DNA of 64,000 nt. Origin: Betaproteobacteria bacterium (lineage in GTDB: Bacteria > Pseudomonadota > Gammaproteobacteria > Burkholderiales > Rhodocyclaceae). The notes under the pieces were generated by a model. That model was not told where the DNA came from. It ran no database searches and saw only the letters and a program-made list of their open reading frames with translations. Position numbers and translations under genes: made by a program. The number at the start of each line of letters is the position of its first letter. Positions within the stretch are counted from its first letter, which is position 1. The DNA lies in NCBI GenBank assembly GCA_012026885.1, contig VEPL01000029.1:124001-188000 (forward strand). Reading direction: 5' to 3'. Shown here piece by piece: positions 10,510 through 21,334 of this stretch.

Positions 10510-11298
10510 ATGAAGGTCGTCCAGCTCAGCGACCTGCACCTGACCCGCGACGGCGACCTGCTCTACGGTCGCAGCCCGCGCGCGCGGCTGACACAGGCGA
10601 TCGACCGCATCCTCGCCGACGATGCCGACGCCAGCCTGTGCCTGCTCACCGGCGACCTCGCCGACGCCGGCAGCGATAATGCCTATACCGACCTGCGGGC
10701 GGCGCTCGCCCGCCTGCCCATGCCCTGTCACCTGCTGCCCGGCAACCACGATGACCGCGCCGCCCTGCGCCGTGCCTTCCCGGCGCTGCCCGACGACGGT
10801 AACGGCTTCGTGCAGCAGGCGTTGGCCACGCCGGCCGGGCGCTTCCTGCTCCTCGACACGCTGCGCGACGGCAAGCCCTGGGGGCTCCTCTGTCCGGCCC
10901 GCCTCGCCTGGCTCGCCGCCGAACTCGCTGCCGGCGGCGACCAACCGCTGTTCATCACCATGCACCACCCGCCGTTCGCCGCCGGCCTGCCGGCGATGGA
11001 CCGCTTCATGCTGCGCGGGGTCGACGCTTTCTGGGAGGTCATCGCGCCGCACCGTGCGCGCATCCGCCACCTGTTCATCGGCCACCTGCACCGGCCGATC
11101 GGCGGCAGCTGGCGCGGGATTCCCTTCTCCTGCGTCGCCTCGCCCAACCACCAGGTAGCGCTCGACACGGCCAGTTCCGGCGATGACGTGCCCGGCTGCG
11201 CGGAACCGGCCGGCTACGGGGTCATCCTCATCGACGGCGACACCATAGTCGCCCACCACCGACCGCTCGCGGGCGGCGACACCGCCTTCCTGCTCTGA
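10510..11298 (+). CDS. Calcineurin-like metallophosphoesterase, CpdA-type
   Basis: The 262-residue protein carries the class III cyclic nucleotide phosphodiesterase metal motifs in order: SDLHL (residues 7-11), GDLADAG near 45, GNHDD near 78, HHPP near 155 and GHLHRP near 195. This is the CpdA arrangement, so cAMP hydrolysis is plausible, although many family members have other or unknown substrates. The ATG lies 5 bp after pepN, giving probable co-transcription. A kinase fused to a cyclic-nucleotide-binding-type domain is encoded about 3 kb away, but nothing shows a functional link. Confidence 0.85.
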   Translation: MKVVQLSDLHLTRDGDLLYGRSPRARLTQAIDRILADDADASLCLLTGDLADAGSDNAYTDLRAALARLPMPCHLLPGNHDDRAALRRAFPALPDDGNGFVQQALATPAGRFLLLDTLRDGKPWGLLCPARLAWLAAELAAGGDQPLFITMHHPPFAAGLPAMDRFMLRGVDAFWEVIAPHRARIRHLFIGHLHRPIGGSWRGIPFSCVASPNHQVALDTASSGDDVPGCAEPAGYGVILIDGDTIVAHHRPLAGGDTAFLL

Positions 11299-11299
11299 C

Positions 11300-12079
11300 T
11301 CAGGCGGTCACTGCCGCCTTGGCCGGTGCCCACTGGCGGCGGCTGACCGGCAGTTTCTCGGGCACCCCACGCAGCAGCGCCCAGCCGTAGGCTTCGGCGT
11401 CGTCGCCGGCGGCCTTCTCGAAGCCGGCCAGCGCCGAACGCGCGACCAACACGGAACGATGCAGCCGGAGAAAACGCTCTCCGAACTCTTCCTCCAAATG
11501 GGTCAGCGCCTCGTCGAGCAGGTATTCGCGCTCGACGGTGCGGGCGGTGACGTACTTGAGGTCGGCCCGGAAGTAGAGTATCTCGGCCACCGGCACGAGC
11601 AGGAGGCGGCCGCGCTCGTGACAGGCGAGGTGGGTACGCCCGCCGCCGCGCACTACCTGGCCGATGCCGGCGAGCAAGACCGGATCGGGGCGCGGCGCCG
11701 CCTGCGCCTTGTGCAGGGCGGTCAGCAGGCGCTGGCCGCGGACCGGCTTCAACAGGTAGTCGATCGCGTTGAGGTCGAAGGCCTGCAGCGCGTAGTTATC
11801 GTAGGCGGTCGTGAAGATGACCGCCGGCGGCGCCGGCATGGCGCCGAGATGGCCGGCGAATTCGAGCCCGTCCATGCCCGGCATGCGGATGTCGGCCAGC
11901 ACGACATCGACCGGCGCTGCGCGCAATTGCTCGAGCGCCTCGAGTCCGTTCCCCGCCTCAGCGACGACGACCGTCGGCAACTGGACGGCAAGGTCGCCGA
12001 GCACGGCGCGCAGGCGCTCGCGCGCCAGCGGCTCGTCATCGACGATGAGGATCTTCAGCGATTCGGCGTCGCTCGGCAT
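11300..12079 (-). CDS. algR: LytTR-family response regulator (AlgR-like)
   Basis: The 259-residue product has an N-terminal receiver domain (ILIVDDEPLARERL at the start, phospho-acceptor Asp in VVLADIRMPGMDGLEF near residue 62, switch residues in IFTTAYDNYALQAFD) and a C-terminal LytTR DNA-binding domain from about 150 (ILYFRADLKYVTART, then FLRLHRSVLVAR). Its start overlaps the sensor gene by 25 bp. The location near argH and the hem genes resembles the Pseudomonas argH-fimS-algR-hemC region, which supports AlgR-type orthology. Its targets here are unknown. Confidence 0.85.
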   Translation of the reverse strand: MPSDAESLKILIVDDEPLARERLRAVLGDLAVQLPTVVVAEAGNGLEALEQLRAAPVDVVLADIRMPGMDGLEFAGHLGAMPAPPAVIFTTAYDNYALQAFDLNAIDYLLKPVRGQRLLTALHKAQAAPRPDPVLLAGIGQVVRGGGRTHLACHERGRLLLVPVAEILYFRADLKYVTARTVEREYLLDEALTHLEEEFGERFLRLHRSVLVARSALAGFEKAAGDDAEAYGWALLRGVPEKLPVSRRQWAPAKAAVTA

Positions 12080-13071
12080 GGCAGGATGATGCGGACCTCG
12101 TAGCGGCCCTCGCCCTCGGCGATCTCGAGGCGGGCCTCGAGGTCATAGTACAACGCCAGGCGTTCGCGGATATTGTCGACGGCCATGCGGTTGCCGGCGG
12201 CGTGGCGCCCCGCCGCACCGGCAACGGGATTGGCGATGACGATGCGCAGTTCGTCGCCGCGCCGCTCGAGAGCGATGGTGACGGTCCCGCCGGCGGGTGC
12301 CGGTTCGATGCCGTGATACACCGCATTCTCCAGCAGCGGCTGCAGCATCAGCGGCGGGATCGGCAGGTCCATGGAAACCGGGCCGATTTGCCAGTCGACC
12401 GCGAGGCGCTCGCCGAGGCGCAGGTGCTCGAGTTCGAGGTATTGCCGCGCCAGCGCCAGCTCGTCGGCGAGGCTGACCAGTCCGCCCGGGTCGCGCATCG
12501 CCGCGCGGAAGAGGTCCGACAGGGCCTCGAGGGCCGCCTCGGCCTGCTGCGGTCGGGCCCGGATCAGCGACAGCACGGCGTTCAGCGAATTGAACAGGAA
12601 ATGCGGCCGGATGCGCGCGTTCAGGGCGGCCAGGCGCGCTTCCGCCTGGGCCGGCGAAAAGGCGCGGGCGCGCAGGGCGAAGTAGAGCAGCATCGTCGCC
12701 GCTGCCAACGCGGCGAGCAAGGCTGCTCGCCCGGCGCCGGCCTCGGCGAAGCCTAACAACTGCCAGAAGCGCTGCTGGGCGACCGCCAATCCGGCGGCGA
12801 TCGCGACCACCGCGGCCTGCGCCAAGGGCTCAGGCAACCGGCGCAGCATGTCGCGCAGCAGCGCCAGGACGCCGAGGCAGAGCAACAGCAGCGGCTCGAC
12901 CACCGCCGCCAGCTCGACGTAGCGCTCCCCCCAGCCGGAAAGGCCCGGCGTCTGGACCAGCGCCGCCGCCAGGGCCAGGACGTTAACGCCAAGCAACAGG
13001 CGCAGCATGACCCCGAAGTTGCGCCAGTCAGGCAGCGGGTGGGTCGCGGGAAAGTGCCGTATACTTGCCAT
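12055..13071 (-). CDS. algZ: LytS/AlgZ-like sensor histidine kinase
   Basis: The 338-residue sensor has an N-terminal membrane domain of about four hydrophobic segments (residues 20-140) followed by a His_kinase domain. The phosphorylation site is in [23 protein letters not shown] near residue 155. A degenerate ATPase domain follows with [13 protein letters not shown] (N box) and [14 protein letters not shown]. There is no separate periplasmic sensor domain. It precedes algR and is divergent from argH, so the roughly 45 bp between their starts must hold both promoters. A TATACT hexamer at 13060-13065 could be a -10 for argH, but no good -35 accompanies it. Confidence 0.86.
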
Positions 13072-13116
13072 TATTCGAGCGCCAGATCGGCCGACCGCAC
13101 CATTCTAGACCAGAGC

Positions 13117-14502
13117 ATGACCACCGACGCTTCCCAATACACCTGGGCCGGCCGTTTCTCCGAGCCCGTCTCCGATCTCGTCAAACGCTACACCGCCTCG
13201 GTCGATTTCGACCAGCGCATGTGGCGCCAGGACATTCGCGGCTCGCTCGCCCACGCCCGCATGCTGGCCAAACAGGGCATCATCGCCGCGGCCGACCTGG
13301 CCGACATCGAACGCGGCATGGCCGTCGTCACAGAAGAAATCGAGTCGGGCAAGTTTGAATGGTCGCTCGACCTCGAAGACGTTCATCTCAACATCGAAAA
13401 GCGCCTGACCGCGCTGGTCGGCGATGCCGGCAAGCGTCTGCACACCGGTCGTTCGCGCAACGACCAGGTGGCGACCGACATCCGCCTCTACCTGCGCGAT
13501 TCGATCGACGACATCCTCGTCCTGCTCAAGGCTTTCCGTTCGGCCCTGGTCGATCTGGCCGAGAAGGAAGCAGCCACCCCGATGCCCGGCTTCACGCACC
13601 TGCAGGTCGCCCAGCCGGTCACCTTCGGCCACCACATGCTGGCCTATTTCGAAATGTTCGGCCGCGATGCCGAGCGCTTCGTCGATTGCCGCAAGCGCGT
13701 CGCCCGCCTGCCCCTCGGCGCCGCCGCGCTGGCCGGCACGACCTACCCGATCGACCGCGAATTCGTTGCCGAACAACTGGGCTTCGACGGCGTCTGCGAG
13801 AACTCGCTGGATGCCGTTTCCGACCGCGACTTCGCCATCGAATTCACCTCGACCTGCGCGCTGTTGATGATGCACATCAGCCGCCTGTCGGAAGAACTGG
13901 TGATGTGGATGAGCCCGCGCATCGGCTTCATCCAGATTGCCGACCGCTTCTGCACCGGCTCGTCGATCATGCCGCAGAAGAAGAATCCGGACGTGCCGGA
14001 ACTGGCGCGCGGCAAGACCGGCCGCGTGTACGGCCAGCTGATGAGCCTGCTGACCCTGATGAAGTCGCAGCCGCTGGCCTACAACAAGGACAACCAGGAA
14101 GACAAGGAACCGCTGTTCGACGCCGTCGACACGGTGACCGACACGCTGCGCATCTTCGCCGACATGGCGGGCGGCATCACGGTGCGCGCCGAGAACATGC
14201 AGGCCGCGCTGACCCAGGGCTTCGCCACCGCCACCGACCTCGCCGACTACCTGGTCAAGAAGGGCCTGCCCTTCCGCGACGCGCACGAAGCCGTCGGCCA
14301 CGCCGTCAAGGCCGCCGAAGCCAGGGGCATCGACCTGCCGCAACTGAACCTAGACGAACTCAAGGCCTTCTGCCCGCAGGTGGGAGACGACGTGTTTGCC
14401 GTGTTGACCGTGGCAGGCTCGCTGGCCTCGCGCAACCACATCGGCGGCACCGCCCCCGAACAAGTGCGCGCGGCAGTCGCCCGCGCCCGGACCCGCCTCT
14501 GA
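13117..14502 (+). CDS. argH: Argininosuccinate lyase
   Basis: ArgH splits argininosuccinate into arginine and fumarate, the last step of arginine synthesis. The 461-residue product has the AGRFSEP start, [13 protein letters not shown] near residue 110 and the fumarase/lyase superfamily signature [12 protein letters not shown] near residue 285, which contains the catalytic serine loop. The ATG at 13117 is chosen from family length; the ORF track starts 26 codons early. The Ser/Thr kinase gene starts 3 bp after the stop, so they are probably co-transcribed. Confidence 0.97.
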
Positions 14503-14505
14503 ACG

Positions 14506-15786
14506 ATGCAGAAGCGGCTCGGCAAGTACGAACTGCTGAGTAAGCTCGGCGACGGGGCGACAAGCACCGTCTATCTCGGTCGCGACCCTTTCGCCAAGCG
14601 CGAGGTGGCGATCAAGGTCGCCACCCCCGAAATCCTGCGCGACCCCGAGCGCGGCCGGCTGTATACCCGCCTGTTCCTCAACGAGGCGTCACTGGTCGGC
14701 AAGCTGACCCACCCACACATCGTGCAGATCTTCGATGCCGTGGTGACCGACGACCTCTGCTACATCGTCATGGAATACGTGCCGGGCGGCACGCTGGAGA
14801 CCTACACGCACGGCGACAAGCTGCTGCCGGTCGACCACGTCGTCGAACTCATATTCAAGTGCACGCGTGCGCTCGAGTTCGCTCACCGCCTGGGCATCAC
14901 CCACCGCGACATCAAGCCGGCCAATATCCTGATGTGCGACCAGCACGACATCAAGATCTCCGACTTCGGCTCCGCCATCACCAACACACCCAATCACCGG
15001 ACCGTCATCACCGGCGTCGGCTCGCCCGCCTACATGTCGCCCGAGCAGATCCGCGAGCGTCCGCTCGACCATCGTACCGACATTTACTCGCTCGGCGTCG
15101 TCATGCACCAGCTGCTGACCGGCGAACTCCCGTTCGCCGGCGACACCGATTACGCGATCATTTTCCAGGTCATCAACACGACACCGCCGCTACCCTCGGC
15201 GCGACGTCCCGACCTGCCGCCCATCCTCGACCGCATCGTGGCGCGGGCCATGGCGCGCGACACCGAAGCCCGCTACCCGACGTGGACAGCCTTCGCCCAG
15301 GACCTGGCGCAGGCGGTACGCACGGGACAGCTCAAGCGCCACCACGGCGACATGCCGGAAACCGAGAAATTCGCGACCCTGCGCATGCTGCCCTTCTTCA
15401 CCGACTTCACCGATGTCGAGATCTGGGAAGCCCTGCGCTTCGCGGGCTGGCAACGAGTCGATCCGGGCACGATCATCATGCGCGACGGCGAACCCGGAAC
15501 CGCGTTCGGCTTCGTCATCGAAGGCGAACTCGAAGTCAGCAAGAACGGGCACCGGATCGCCACGCTCGGCCCCGGCGAGAGCTTCGGCGAAATGGCGGTG
15601 ATTCGCCGCTATGGCCACGAGCGCATCGCCGACATCACCGCCGCTACCGACGCGCGCGTCGTCATTATCCGCAGCGAGGCCCTCACGGAAGCGTCAGGCG
15701 CCTGCCGGATGCATTTCTATCAGGCCTTCCTGGAAACCATGGCTGACCGCCTGAGCGGCGCGGTCCGCCACATCGCCTCCGGCTGA
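14506..15786 (+). CDS. Ser/Thr protein kinase fused to a cyclic-nucleotide-binding-type domain
   Basis: Residues about 1-270 form a Hanks-type kinase: glycine loop LGDGATSTVYLG (17-28), VAIK lysine near 37, catalytic loop HRDIKPANIL near 142, DFG near 158 and a YMSPEQ activation-loop end. Residues about 285-420 form a cNMP-binding-like domain with the phosphate-binding cassette region GESFGEMAVIRRYGHERIADITA. The conserved Glu and Arg are present, but the usual Ser/Thr after Arg is Ile, so nucleotide binding is uncertain. There is no transmembrane segment, so it should be cytosolic. It starts 3 bp after argH. The fusion suggests a kinase controlled by a small ligand. Confidence 0.9.
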   Translation: MQKRLGKYELLSKLGDGATSTVYLGRDPFAKREVAIKVATPEILRDPERGRLYTRLFLNEASLVGKLTHPHIVQIFDAVVTDDLCYIVMEYVPGGTLETYTHGDKLLPVDHVVELIFKCTRALEFAHRLGITHRDIKPANILMCDQHDIKISDFGSAITNTPNHRTVITGVGSPAYMSPEQIRERPLDHRTDIYSLGVVMHQLLTGELPFAGDTDYAIIFQVINTTPPLPSARRPDLPPILDRIVARAMARDTEARYPTWTAFAQDLAQAVRTGQLKRHHGDMPETEKFATLRMLPFFTDFTDVEIWEALRFAGWQRVDPGTIIMRDGEPGTAFGFVIEGELEVSKNGHRIATLGPGESFGEMAVIRRYGHERIADITAATDARVVIIRSEALTEASGACRMHFYQAFLETMADRLSGAVRHIASG

Positions 15787-15793
15787 CTTCCCG

Positions 15794-17800
15794 TCAGCCC
15801 GGTGCCGGCAACGAGGCAACTGCCTCGTCGGCGGATTCGTAGAGATGCGGCGCCACATGCGCCTTGGTCAAGGCTTCCCCGAGTTTAACGCGCATGAAGG
15901 TGTTGGACGTATAGCGCGTCACGTCGTGGTAGAAGCGCTCGACAACCCCTCTGACCATGCCCATGTAGGGATCGACCAGTTCCGGCGTGATCGAGAAGCG
16001 GTCGTAATTGACAATAGCGAAAACCTTGTGGCCAATCGGCGCCAGAAAGTCTTCGACGGCGTGCTGGATGCGCTCGATGTCTGCCTCGCTGCGAACCGTC
16101 AGCCCCTCGAAATTGAGGAAGAAAAGGTTCTTCTCGGGTTCGTAGGTGAGGCGCTCGGAAAGCGGAATTGCCAGCATTTCCGGGCGGATGTTCATCGGCT
16201 CTTCGTGGAAGATGCGGCTGTCCATCAGTGCCGGCTCGGCATGCATGATCGGCATGAAGTCCATCTTGTCGAGGATGTCGCGCTGCAGATCGACGCCGGG
16301 TGCAATCTCGATCAATTCGAGACCCTCGGCACACAGGCGGAAGACGCAGCGCTCGGTCACGTAGAGCACGGTCTTGCCCCACTTGGCGGCCTGCGGGCCG
16401 CTGAACGTCCGGTGCTCCACTTCCTGGACGAATTTCCTGGCCTTGCCGTCCTCCAGAATCAGTAGTTTTCCGGCGTCGACCGCAACATCCAGATTACCGG
16501 CGGTAAAGGTTCCGACGAACACCACCTTCTTGGCATTCTGTGAGATGTTGATGAATCCGCCAGCCCCGGCCAGGCGGGGACCGAACTTGGAGACATTCAG
16601 GTTGCCTTGGCGGTCAGCCTGGGCAAGCCCGAGGAAGGCGATGTCGAGGCCGCCCCCATCGTAGAAATCGAACTGGCTGGGCTGGTCGATGATCGCCTGG
16701 GCATTGGTGGCTGCCCCAAAACTGAGGCCGCCCGCGGGAACGCCACCGATGACGCCGGGTTCGGCGGTCAGCGTCATCAGGTCGATGATCTGCTCTTCTG
16801 CGGCGACATTGGCGACGCCTTCGGGCATGCCGATGCCCAGATTGACCACGGCGTTGGCTTTCAATTCGAGGGCGGCCCGACGCGCGATGATCTTGCGTTC
16901 GCTCATCGGCATAGGCGGAATCGCCGACATCGGCACCTTGATTTCGCCGGCAAAGGCGGCACTGTAGGGTTCGGCAAAGGTTTGCAGGTGGTACTCCGGC
17001 TTTTCGGCAACCACCACGCAGTCGACGAGAATCCCCGGAATCTTGACCTGCCGGGGATTCAGCGTGCCGCGCTCGGCAATGCGCTCGACCTGAACGATCA
17101 CCGTACCGCCCGAATTGCGGGTCGCCATCGCAATGGCCTGCGCTTCCAGCGTCAGCGCCTCCTTTTCCATCGTGATGTTGCCATCCGGATCCGCGGTCGT
17201 TCCGCGGATGATGCCGACGTTGATCGGGAAAGCCTTGTAGAAAAGATACTCCTGGCCATCGATTTCCATCAGACGGACCACATCGGTGGTGGTCTTCTCG
17301 TTCAGCTTTCCCCCGCCGAACCGCGGATCGACGAAGGTGCCGAGGCCGACGCGGGTTATCGTTCCCGGCTTGCCGGCGGCGATGTCGCGGAAGAGATGGG
17401 TGATGACGCCTTGCGGCAGGTTGTAGGCCTCGATCCGGTTGGCAACAGCCAGTTGCTGCAGTTTCGGTACGAGGCCCCAATGCCCGCCCAGCACGCGGGA
17501 AACCAGACCATCGTGGCCGAAGTGGTTGAGGCCGCGCTCCTTCCCGTCACCTTGGCCGGCGGCGTAGACGAGGGTCAGGTTGCGCGGACTGCCGAGGCCG
17601 TGAACATCGGCCTGTTCACCCTCAAGAAACAGCTCCTCGAGGGCCACCGCAATGTTCTCGGCAAAGCCGATCCCGACGAAGCCGCCGGTAGCGACCGTAT
17701 CGCCGTCCCGGATCAGACGCACGGCCTCACGAGCACTGACGACCTTGCCCGTGTCCGAAGCACGCAGCGAGGAGGCCATGGGATGCTTGGCAACTGGCAT
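15794..17800 (-). CDS. Acyl-CoA:carboxylate CoA-transferase (propionate/acetoacetate type, fused alpha-beta)
   Basis: This 668-residue protein joins the alpha- and beta-type halves of a class I CoA-transferase, as in YdiF and propionate CoA-transferase. The N-terminal half has [19 protein letters not shown]. The second half has [17 protein letters not shown] and the catalytic-glutamate region [19 protein letters not shown]. It would activate short-chain acids by exchanging CoA with acetyl-CoA or a similar donor. The C-terminal extension of about 100 residues is typical of the YdiF subfamily. AAGGAGA sits at proper spacing before the ATG at 17800. It follows the GntP permease gene by 34 bp, so uptake and activation are encoded together. 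Confidence 0.9.
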
Positions 17801-17834
17801 GTCTTGTCTCCTTGTTATGGTGGCCCGACGGTCG

Positions 17835-19232
17835 TCAGACCAGGCCTGTCATGTAGTAGGTCGCGATCACCACGAAAACCGCCAGCGTCTTGATACAGGT
17901 GATGGCGAAGATGTCCTTGTAGGACTGCCGGTGCGTCAGCCCGGTGACTGCAAGCAGGGTGATCACCGCACCGTTGTGCGGCAGCGTGTCCATGCCGCCC
18001 GAAGCCATCGAGGCGACCCGATGGAGGACTTCGAGCGGGATGCCTGCTGCATTCGCATTCTCGATGAACGTTTCTGCCATCGCCGCCAGGGCGATGCCCA
18101 TGCCTCCCGAGGCCGAGCCGGTAATGCCGGCCAGGGTGGTGACGGTGATCGCCTCGTTGATCAGGGGATTTGGAATTGCGCGCAGGCCGTCGGCAATGAC
18201 CAGGAAGCCCGGCAATGCCGCGATGACAGCCCCGAAGCCGTATTCGGAAGCGGTGTTCATCGTCGCCAGCAGCGCGCCCCCGATCGCCGTCTTGGTACCT
18301 TCCGCAAATTTTTCGAGCACGGTCCGGCCGGCAAAGACGAAGACCGTGGCAATGCCGAGCAACAATGCGCCCTCGACCGCCCAGATGGCAGCAATCGCCT
18401 TGGTCTGCTGGACAACCGGGGCCGCCTTGCCGATGACCGCCGGAATGAACGACACCGATTCGCCATAGACCTTCGGAATAAGCACTGTGAAGACCTTGTT
18501 CATGACGCCGACCATGACCAGCGGCAGGATGGCGATCAGCGGATGGGCCAGCTTCTCGTGCTCGAACGGCTCCGGCTCGTTCAGAAGTTCGGTGCCGTAG
18601 CCTTCATTGGCGGCCATCGCCTTGCGCCGCTGCCATTCGAGATAGGTCATGCCGACAACGAAAATGAACACGGCCCCTACGACACCGAGTATCGGCGCGG
18701 CGTAGATATTGGTCTTGAAAAAGGTAGTCGGGATGATGTTCTGGATCTGCGGGGTGCCGGGCAGCGCATCCATCGTGAAGGTGAAGGCGCCCAAGGCGAT
18801 CGTGCCGGGGATAAGCCGCTTCGGAATACCGCCGGCACGGAACATCTCGGCAGCGAAGGGATACACCGCGAAAACCACGACGAACAGTGAAACGCCGCCG
18901 TAAGTCAGGATGGCGCAGACGAGGACGATCGACAGCATTGCGCGCTCGCGGCCAATCAACTTGATCACCGACGCCACGATGGCCTTGGAGAACCCGGACA
19001 GCTCGATGACCTTGCCGAATACCGCCCCGAGCAGGAAGACCGGGAAGTAGTTCTTGACGAATGCCACCATCTTGTCCATGAACAACCCGGTGAACATCGG
19101 GGCGACCAGGGATGGGTCGAGGAAAAGTACGGCGCCGAGGGCGGCAACCGGTGCGAAGAGGATGACGCTGTAGCCCCGATAGGCCACGAACATCAGGAAT
19201 CCCAGTGAGGCAAGGACGACAATGAATTCCAC
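17835..19232 (-). CDS. GntP-family organic-acid permease
   Basis: This 465-residue protein has about 12 hydrophobic segments and matches the GntP/gluconate:H+ symporter superfamily, with motifs such as [21 protein letters not shown] and [12 protein letters not shown]-type glycine-rich loops. The partner CoA-transferase points to a short-chain hydroxy or keto acid such as 3-hydroxybutyrate or acetoacetate rather than gluconate; this is inference. The start is a GTG with AAAGGAGAG four bases upstream. A -24/-12 promoter (19266-19282) lies 34 bp upstream, and a sigma-54 activator gene is next door. Confidence 0.88.
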
Positions 19233-19265
19233 GATTCTCTCCTTTGTTATGTGACGGCGCCGCTA

Positions 19266-19282
19266 TGGCACATCGCGTGCCA
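19266..19282 (-). promoter_or_regulatory. Sigma-54 -24/-12 promoter for GntP-CoA-transferase
   Basis: On the minus strand this reads TGGCACGCGATGTGCCA. It has GG and GC dinucleotides separated by exactly 10 bases (TGGCAC-N5-GTGC against consensus TGGCAC-N5-TTGC), 34 bp upstream of the GTG of the permease. The same 17 bases form a perfect 6-bp palindrome around a 5-bp centre, so an overlapping operator is possible. The adjacent gene encodes a sigma-54 activator, which supports the reading. Confidence 0.75.
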
Positions 19283-19296
19283 CCCCTCCCAACTCA

Positions 19297-19312
19297 TTGA
19301 AAATACTTGAAA
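19297..19312. repeat. TTGAAA direct repeat with 10-bp period
   Basis: TTGAAA occurs at 19297 and 19307 (TTGAAAATACTTGAAA), 15 bp upstream of the -24 element of the sigma-54 promoter. One-turn spacing suggests a protein-binding site. It is closer to the promoter than a typical enhancer site, so a second regulator or IHF-like bending is also possible. Confidence 0.4.
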
Positions 19313-19389
19313 TCAACCGCCTTGCAACGTCAACCGCACCCGCCAAAGTGTTCGCCCGGCCGGACACCCTGTCCTTGCCGGCAGACAGT

Positions 19390-20772
19390 TCATACTGCGC
19401 CGGCCTCGACGCCCAGCAACGAGATCTTTTCGTAGAGTGCGGCCCGCGATATACCCAGCTTGCGGGCCGCCTGGACCTTGTTGCCGTGGCAGGCCCGCAA
19501 TGCGTCGACGATGGCTGATCGCTCCGCCTGCGCGACGATGCCGGCCATGCTGGCGCCAAGTTGTCGCCCCATCGGCATGACCGCGTCGAGGGTCGCGGCT
19601 TCGAGGGTATCGCCATCGACCGTGAGCAACGCCCGCTCCAGCACATTGGCCAATTCGCGGACATTGCCGGGCCAGTCGTGGCGGAGCAGGCGCTGGACAG
19701 CACCCGGCTCGAGGCCGACGACGGGCATGTCGAGGCGGTGACAGATCTGCTCGACCAGGCACTCGGCAATCTGCGGCAGGTCGCCGGCACGATCGCGCAG
19801 CGGCGGCGGCCGCAAGGTGACCACGTTGAGTCGGTAATAAAGATCGGCGCGGAATGCGCCCTCGCTGACCATTTTCTCAAGGTCCCGACTGGTTGCAGCG
19901 ATGACGCGAACGTCGACCGGAATCAGGCGGTTGGAACCCACCGGCTCCACTTCGCGCTCCTGAAGCGTACGCAGGAGTTTGGCTTGCAGGTTCAGCGACA
20001 TGTCGCCGACCTCGTCGAGGAACAGCGTGCCGCGATCCGCCAGTTTGAACTTGCCGTCGCGCCCGCGCCGGTCGGCCCCGGTGTAGGCCCCGGCCGCGAC
20101 GCCGAAGAATTCGGCCTCCAGAAGGGTTTCCGGGATTGCTGCGAGGTTGACCGCGACGAACGGGCCGTCCGCCCGCGGGCTGGCAGCATGGATCGCCTGG
20201 GCCAGGAGTTCCTTGCCGGTCCCTGTTTCGCCCACGATCAGCACTGACGATGCGGTGCGGGCGGCACGCCGGGCCGCCTGTTTGAGGTCGCTGCAGGCGA
20301 CGCCGCTGCCGATGAAACTGGACAGCGTGTACTTGGTCCGTCGCGCCGCCGCCAGCCGCCGTTCGACATCGGCCAGTTCGGCCCGCAGTTGCTGATAGCG
20401 CGACACCACTGGCGCCAGATGCCGGGGGTCGTCGAACAGCATGAAGCCGACTGCACCGACCACCTCGCCACGCTGGTCGCGCAACGGCAGGCGCGTCACG
20501 ACGAAGGCTTCGTCGGCGAATTCCATGATATCCAGCATGATCGGCTTGCCGCTCTCGACCACCTGGCGCATCAGGCTGTGCGGTATGGCTTCCTCGATCG
20601 GTCGGCCGATCGCCGCAGCCGGGTCGGTAATGCCCAGGCGCTCGGGATAGCGCTCGTTCATCCAGACAATGCGGGCCTCGGCATCGACGATGATCGCCCC
20701 TTCGCACAGATCGGCAAAGTGTTCGAGCAGGGAATGGGCGGCCAATTCGCGCAGTTCGTCGGCGGAAATCAT
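19390..20772 (-). CDS. Sigma-54-dependent activator with PAS sensor domain
   Basis: The 460-residue protein has a PAS domain (about residues 15-125, IIVDAEARIVWMNERYPERLGI), an AAA+ ATPase domain (Walker A GETGTGKE near 175, the sigma-54 contact loop as GAYTGA instead of GAFTGA, Walker B TLFLDEVGDM) and a C-terminal Fis-type helix-turn-helix (KVQAARKLGISRAALYEKI). I take the ATG at 20772 (MISADELREL) because the longer ORF adds an Arg/Ser-rich shadow segment. It lies upstream of, and on the same strand as, the GntP/CoA-transferase operon, its likely target. It probably shares a transcript with the isochorismatase and CBS genes. Confidence 0.92.
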   Translation of the reverse strand: MISADELRELAAHSLLEHFADLCEGAIIVDAEARIVWMNERYPERLGITDPAAAIGRPIEEAIPHSLMRQVVESGKPIMLDIMEFADEAFVVTRLPLRDQRGEVVGAVGFMLFDDPRHLAPVVSRYQQLRAELADVERRLAAARRTKYTLSSFIGSGVACSDLKQAARRAARTASSVLIVGETGTGKELLAQAIHAASPRADGPFVAVNLAAIPETLLEAEFFGVAAGAYTGADRRGRDGKFKLADRGTLFLDEVGDMSLNLQAKLLRTLQEREVEPVGSNRLIPVDVRVIAATSRDLEKMVSEGAFRADLYYRLNVVTLRPPPLRDRAGDLPQIAECLVEQICHRLDMPVVGLEPGAVQRLLRHDWPGNVRELANVLERALLTVDGDTLEAATLDAVMPMGRQLGASMAGIVAQAERSAIVDALRACHGNKVQAARKLGISRAALYEKISLLGVEAGAV

Positions 20773-20791
20773 GGGAACGTTCTGATCAGCC

Positions 20792-21334
20792 TCATCGGAG
20801 AAACTCCCGACTGACCTGGCGGAAGAGATCGGTGCCCGCCCGCTGCAGCCACTCGAATGCGACCATCTCGCGCGACACGATGCGGCAACCTTCCTGGCGC
20901 ATGCGCTCGAGGCCGAGGGCCTTGTCGCCGGCGCGCCGCGAACCGCATGCCTCGGCGACGACGAAGACCTCCTTGCCCTGAGCGAGCAAACCGAGCACCG
21001 TCTGCAGCACACAGACGTGCGTCTCGGTGCCGGCCAGCACCACCTGCGGCCGTGCCAGTGCCGGCAATGCCGCCAGGCAGCCGTCGGCGGCAGCCGAAAA
21101 ATGGATCTTCTCGACGATTTCGCCGGGTGCCAGGCGCCCCGCCAGTTCGGGCACGGTCGCCCCGAGCCCGGCAGGATACTGCTCGGTCGCCGTCACCGGG
21201 ACAGAGAGCCGGCGCGCCACGTCGACCAGCCAGGCATTGTGGCGCAGCACGTCGGCAATGCCGTCGATGGCCGGCGCCAGCCGCTCCTGGAGGTCGACCA
21301 GCAGGAGCGTCGAACGGGCGGGATCGATCAGCAT
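20792..21334 (-). CDS. Isochorismatase-family cysteine hydrolase
   Basis: The 180-residue protein has the isochorismatase-fold triad: Asp in LLLVDLQERL near residue 14, Lys in EIVEKIHFSA near 80 and Cys in GTETHVCVLQT near 113. Members hydrolyse isochorismate, nicotinamide or other amides, and the substrate here is not evident. The ATG at 21334 is chosen because upstream residues are an Arg-rich shadow. It starts 1 bp after the CBS gene stop and ends 19 bp before the sigma-54 activator, so a three-gene operon is likely. Confidence 0.88.
   Translation of the reverse strand: MLIDPARSTLLLVDLQERLAPAIDGIADVLRHNAWLVDVARRLSVPVTATEQYPAGLGATVPELAGRLAPGEIVEKIHFSAAADGCLAALPALARPQVVLAGTETHVCVLQTVLGLLAQGKEVFVVAEACGSRRAGDKALGLERMRQEGCRIVSREMVAFEWLQRAGTDLFRQVSREFLR

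Follow-up and report, generated by a model that had tools for sequence, protein, structure and literature searches.

Within the window, i.e., the whole 64,000-nucleotide stretch of betaproteobacterial DNA that was analysed, a forward-strand open reading frame starts with an ATG at 14506 and closes with a stop codon ending at 15786, exactly where an earlier note on this DNA had placed it. Its product of 426 residues joins a Ser/Thr kinase to a cyclic-nucleotide-binding (CNB) domain, an assignment based on the ORF itself, Pfam, AlphaFold2 and the orthologues. The Hanks-type kinase domain (residues 8–253, 14527..15264, forward strand) was identified by Pfam Pkinase (E=3e-50, 171.4 bits for a cut-off of 31.7), PDB sequence match and Foldseek, and the CNB domain (residues 316–395, 15451..15690, forward strand) by Pfam cNMP_binding (E=8e-16, 58.2 bits for a cut-off of 27.5), sequence matches and Foldseek. 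With both domains above the Pfam cut-offs and with Lys37, Glu60, HRD (133–135) and DFG (153–155) in place, the complete Hanks kinase and the CRP-like sensor domain read by the earlier note are borne out. So is the lack of a membrane anchor, since the highest Kyte-Doolittle mean over 19 residues is only 1.26. The phosphate-binding cassette FGEMAVIRRYGHERIADI (residues 360–377, 15583..15636, forward strand; column counts and residue census) carries Glu362 and Arg373 followed by Ile374, again as first described. The AlphaFold2 model of the full protein (with 45 relatives) reached a mean pLDDT of 87.9 and a pTM of 0.84, while being silent on ligand and gating, and the CNB domain modelled alone reached a pLDDT of 87.2. 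One long predicted helix (398–425) closes the protein, and Pfam found no helix-turn-helix family in it. Note that the full-length fusion recurs in ~ 100 genomes, and therefore it is no assembly accident. Judged by its sequence, the ORF product is thus a soluble kinase-CNB fusion with both domains and with intact catalytic and ligand-contact residues.

Immediately upstream on the forward strand lies argH (13117..14502), the argininosuccinate lyase gene, identified by TIGR00838 (621.8 bits for a cut-off of 279.5) and by its adjacency to the kinase gene in 97 loci. Its TGA (14500–14502) is separated from the kinase ATG by the 3 bp reported earlier, and the close tie to argH was retained on a large scale: in the 97 measurable loci, mostly from Rhodocyclales, the median gap is 11 bp, it does not exceed 100 bp in 96 of them, and the two genes overlap in eight. 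A contig scan returned 80 loci at 55–70% identity (Dechloromonas, Azonexus, Accumulibacter, Propionivibrio, Sulfuritalea, Rugosibacter, Sterolibacterium, Rhodocyclus and others), all 80 with argH upstream of the kinase gene, and cultured species such as Dechloromonas denitrificans and Rhodocyclus tenuis carry the fusion. The search for the same fusion and neighbourhood, which the earlier note had proposed as a check, therefore points to a conserved family. The two genes form a predicted operon in which the kinase is probably made from the argH mRNA, so that the kinase level would track argH expression. A promoter and terminator scan of 13000–15900 gave nothing above chance.

Such a constant gene order raises the question of whether the kinase controls ArgH or arginine synthesis, an explanation compatible with any ligand and suggested by the 97 loci, by the eight overlaps and by the tree, which unites the argH-linked proteins in a single clade with an SH-aLRT support of 94. 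The same clade, however, implies that the kinase gene probably joined the argH operon once, and consequently the 97 loci are not independent cases. Moreover, argH was kept without the kinase in 14/14 genus members tested, and many members of the window's own genus lack the argH-linked copy with argH intact. Beyond the argH-linked clade, further families of the order and of the class encode full-length kinase-CNB proteins, and the genes lie in unrelated contexts, beside moaC-like or rhodanese-like genes (named by eye) or grpE-dnaK. We consider a functional link to arginine synthesis quite unlikely; the tie to argH may do no more than secure expression.

The other side of argH is flanked in most loci by a divergent histidine kinase/LytTR pair, which in the window (11300–13071, minus strand) comprises a response regulator of the LytTR type with a sensor of the His_kinase family and resembles the AlgR/AlgZ arrangement of Pseudomonas. 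This pair lies between argH and a metallophosphatase gene (10513–11298), which is hence nearby but outside the kinase operon. The earlier note had pointed to a neighbouring CpdA-like phosphodiesterase: the proximity stands, but the CpdA likeness does not, as the NCBIfam score was 95 bits for a cut-off of 225. The protein scored higher for SpdA, a 2',3'-cNMP enzyme (225 bits for a cut-off of 400), both values being below their cut-offs. Because the CpdA cut-off was missed and the gene is kept near the kinase locus in close relatives only, it lends little support to a cAMP circuit, and we set it aside as a circuit partner. Convergent to the kinase gene (15794–21012) are a FadX-like CoA-transferase (under the curated cut-off), a membrane-transporter-like gene without any NCBIfam match and a sigma-54-type activator, a set suggestive of a cluster for short-chain fatty-acid catabolism; the closest relatives retain the first two beside the kinase. 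Plasmid carriage was rejected, since no full-length relative was found on plasmid records. An anti-phage role was also rejected, as the PADLOC matches (PD-T4-6, mad6) span only the generic kinase part (~ residues 2–293) and the context is housekeeping.

Residue conservation provided information about the cassette. Among 102 relatives, the kinase residues G17, K37, E60, H133-R134-D135, D153 and G155 were invariant (102/102) and G15 nearly so (100/102), as were G361, E362 and R373 (102/102) and A375 (101/102) in the cassette, and this invariance holds in the dnaK-linked and distant paralogues too. The resulting pattern, Gly-Glu...Arg-(small)-Ala, has a small residue after the Arg in most relatives and Ile in the window. 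Indeed, among 111 sequences this position is mainly Gly (63) or Ser (26), rarely Asn, Thr, Val, Cys, His, Leu or Ala, and Ile in the window sequence only; the closest relatives carry Ser, the canonical residue. The window copy also sits on a long branch and differs at 5 of 46 conserved CNB positions, versus none in its close siblings (L007–L010, L036–L037). Its pairwise pN/pS against sibling L036 is 0.31 for the kinase and 0.44 for the CNB domain, compared to 0.05–0.29 among relatives, and its identity to L036 is 75% in the kinase and 63% in the CNB domain, while L036 and L007 share 96% and 98%, respectively. By these sequence comparisons, the window copy is one that evolved faster than its siblings, and the Ile, unique to it, is therefore better seen as a peculiarity of one copy than as a family trait. 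A family-wide change of ligand signalled by Ile374 was thus rejected, and the suggestion drawn from this residue that the ligand may not be cAMP loses its ground, given the invariant Gly, Glu and Arg. Still, should the family bind cAMP, the window copy itself may do so with lower affinity, given its unusual pocket residue and its faster evolution.

The same observations bear on the idea that, in the window copy or family-wide, the CNB fold has lost its ligand sensing and acts in dimerisation or docking for a constitutively active kinase. The stronger divergence of the window CNB compared to its kinase and the Ile374 in its pocket would fit such a loss. However, few CNB columns are invariant and the ligand contacts are among them, which fits poorly with a purely structural role, and pN/pS of the window copy remains ~ 0.5 or lower. 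We therefore regard the loss of sensing as improbable.

Alternatively, the CNB domain could gate the kinase with a different small ligand, be it cGMP, a cyclic dinucleotide or a nucleoside. The position following the cassette Arg is variable (Gly, Ser, Asn, Val, Thr, Ile), and its most frequent state, Gly, is non-classical, being uncommon in proven cAMP receptors. In addition, the top PDB sequence matches of the domain include cGMP-dependent kinases, and one Clr pocket accepts both cAMP and cGMP (PMC10127613). Against this, the invariant Glu and Arg read the ribose and phosphate of a 3',5'-cNMP, and a second CNB protein of the genome, a Crp-like regulator, has the canonical R-S-A cassette, consistent with cAMP use. 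The co-occurring cyclase described below, with its ATP-type specificity residues, likewise speaks for cAMP, and a different ligand appears unlikely.

Genome searches found three genes for class III cyclases but none for a class I adenylate cyclase. One of the three, away from the kinase locus, encodes a 423-residue protein with hydrophobic segments towards its N-terminus; its catalytic domain is strong, and the motifs KIKTIG and YDLWGD there look ATP- rather than GTP-type in specificity. In 240 genomes of the order, with the kinase-CNB scored as present at E<=1e-105, 34 contained both the kinase and a cyclase of this type, 22 the kinase only, 10 the cyclase only and 174 neither, i.e., an odds ratio of 27 (p=7e-18) in a statistic that ignores common descent. 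The count by genus (17/14/4/85 in the same order, p=5e-9) ignores it as well, and within the genus, across which kinase and cyclase are both patchily distributed, the supported branches give only 2 independent pairs, which leaves no power. Note that 22/56 kinase-bearing genomes are without the 423-residue type, in which other cyclases may serve. The second class III cyclase (CHASE2-like) displayed no association with the kinase (p=0.7-1.0), but it is rarer and therefore a weak control. We take the association as a lead favouring cAMP, short of proof, and the membrane class III cyclase as better evidence for a cAMP circuit than the neighbouring phosphodiesterase.

Altogether, we lean, by somewhat more than an even chance, towards a soluble cytoplasmic Ser/Thr kinase whose activity is set by its C-terminal CNB domain, with 3',5'-cAMP as the most likely ligand. 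The cAMP would come from the membrane class III cyclase, the gene of which lies at another place in the genome. In the ligand-free state, the CNB domain would hold the PknB-like kinase in check; cAMP, bound through Gly361/Glu362 and Arg373, would shift the C-terminal helix (398–425) and thus release the kinase, which could then phosphorylate protein substrates. The binding, the gating and its direction are our inference. In Sinorhizobium Clr, the equivalent Gly, Glu, Arg and Ser touch the phosphate and sugar of cAMP/cGMP (PMC10127613).

Compared to known systems, the nearest solved kinase is Mycobacterium tuberculosis PknB, a Hanks-type PASTA kinase, with 37% identity over 275 columns (PDB sequence match E=1e-51; Foldseek E=5e-25 with 6i2p). 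Unlike PknB, the fusion has neither a transmembrane segment nor PASTA repeats, and carries the CNB domain instead. Its features are those expected of a Hanks-type Ser/Thr kinase, while the score for NCBIfam PknB_PASTA (278 bits for a cut-off of 450) and the lack of PASTA in Pfam place it outside the PASTA kinase (Stk1/PknB) family. For the CNB domain, PDB sequence matches were PKG, PKA-R and MlotiK1, and Foldseek with the model returned MlotiK1, PKG, PKA-R, HCN/CNG channels and a Geobacter CNB protein (3mdp). As in eukaryotic PKG, kinase and CNB share a single chain, and the CNB domain matches those of PKG and the PKA regulatory subunit in sequence and fold. In PKA and PKG, tandem regulatory CNBs stand N-terminal to an AGC kinase or on a separate chain, whereas here the kinase comes first, a single CNB domain is C-terminal and the kinase is PknB-like; the fusion is probably independent. 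The bacterial receptors MlotiK1 and Crp/Clr/Vfr share the CNB fold and the Gly-Glu...Arg cassette, but their output is a channel or a helix-turn-helix instead of a kinase, and the protein is not a Crp/Fnr regulator. A survey listed CNB among the domains common to planctomycete and eukaryotic kinases (PMC11032199); the planctomycete CNB-bearing kinases belong to another phylum and are likened here by domain content alone.

The earlier note had described soluble ligand-gated kinases of this layout as little studied, which is consistent with our literature search: covering domain surveys and reviews, with most subscription journals and preprints outside its reach, it returned no functional study of the architecture. 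The parts, and the principle from eukaryotes, are known, in a bacterial family that seems uncharacterised; a cAMP-controlled protein kinase is known in eukaryotes and, as far as found in the literature searched, has no bacterial demonstration. It is a tentative proposal, at slightly less than even, that betaproteobacteria possess a widespread single-chain cAMP-dependent kinase, co-inherited with a membrane adenylate cyclase, as a PKA/PKG counterpart that arose by independent fusion of a PknB-type kinase and a CNB domain. If true, bacterial cAMP signalling would, through a conserved family of cAMP-gated kinases, also include direct protein phosphorylation, and the PKA/PKG principle would have evolved convergently. 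Since the proteins are soluble, small (~ 430 residues) and present in cultured species, they are amenable to direct in vitro testing.

The family extends over the class, where 38 of 185 genomes had a match (E<=1e-60), in some cases to the kinase only. In two genomes, argH is followed by two tandem kinase-CNB genes (L148:5440-7997 and L149:5982-8565). In the tree, the first and the second copies fall into different sets of relatives, the window belonging to that of the second copies, a pattern consistent with an old duplication after which one copy was lost. More distant class members (L151, L152 and L153) have pairs of kinase-CNB genes ~ 0.1–3 kb apart. The genome of the window also holds a second kinase-CNB gene (G000:C1:349654-350919; L119:7634-9010), 42% identical, which is divergent beside grpE-dnaK-dnaJ and adjoins hemH; genus members retain it at the same position, even some without the argH-linked copy. 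Finally, a separate kinase-like gene (G000:C11:262286-263775; L121:7239-9118) directly precedes a gene for a PP2C-type phosphatase, a possible partner phosphatase.
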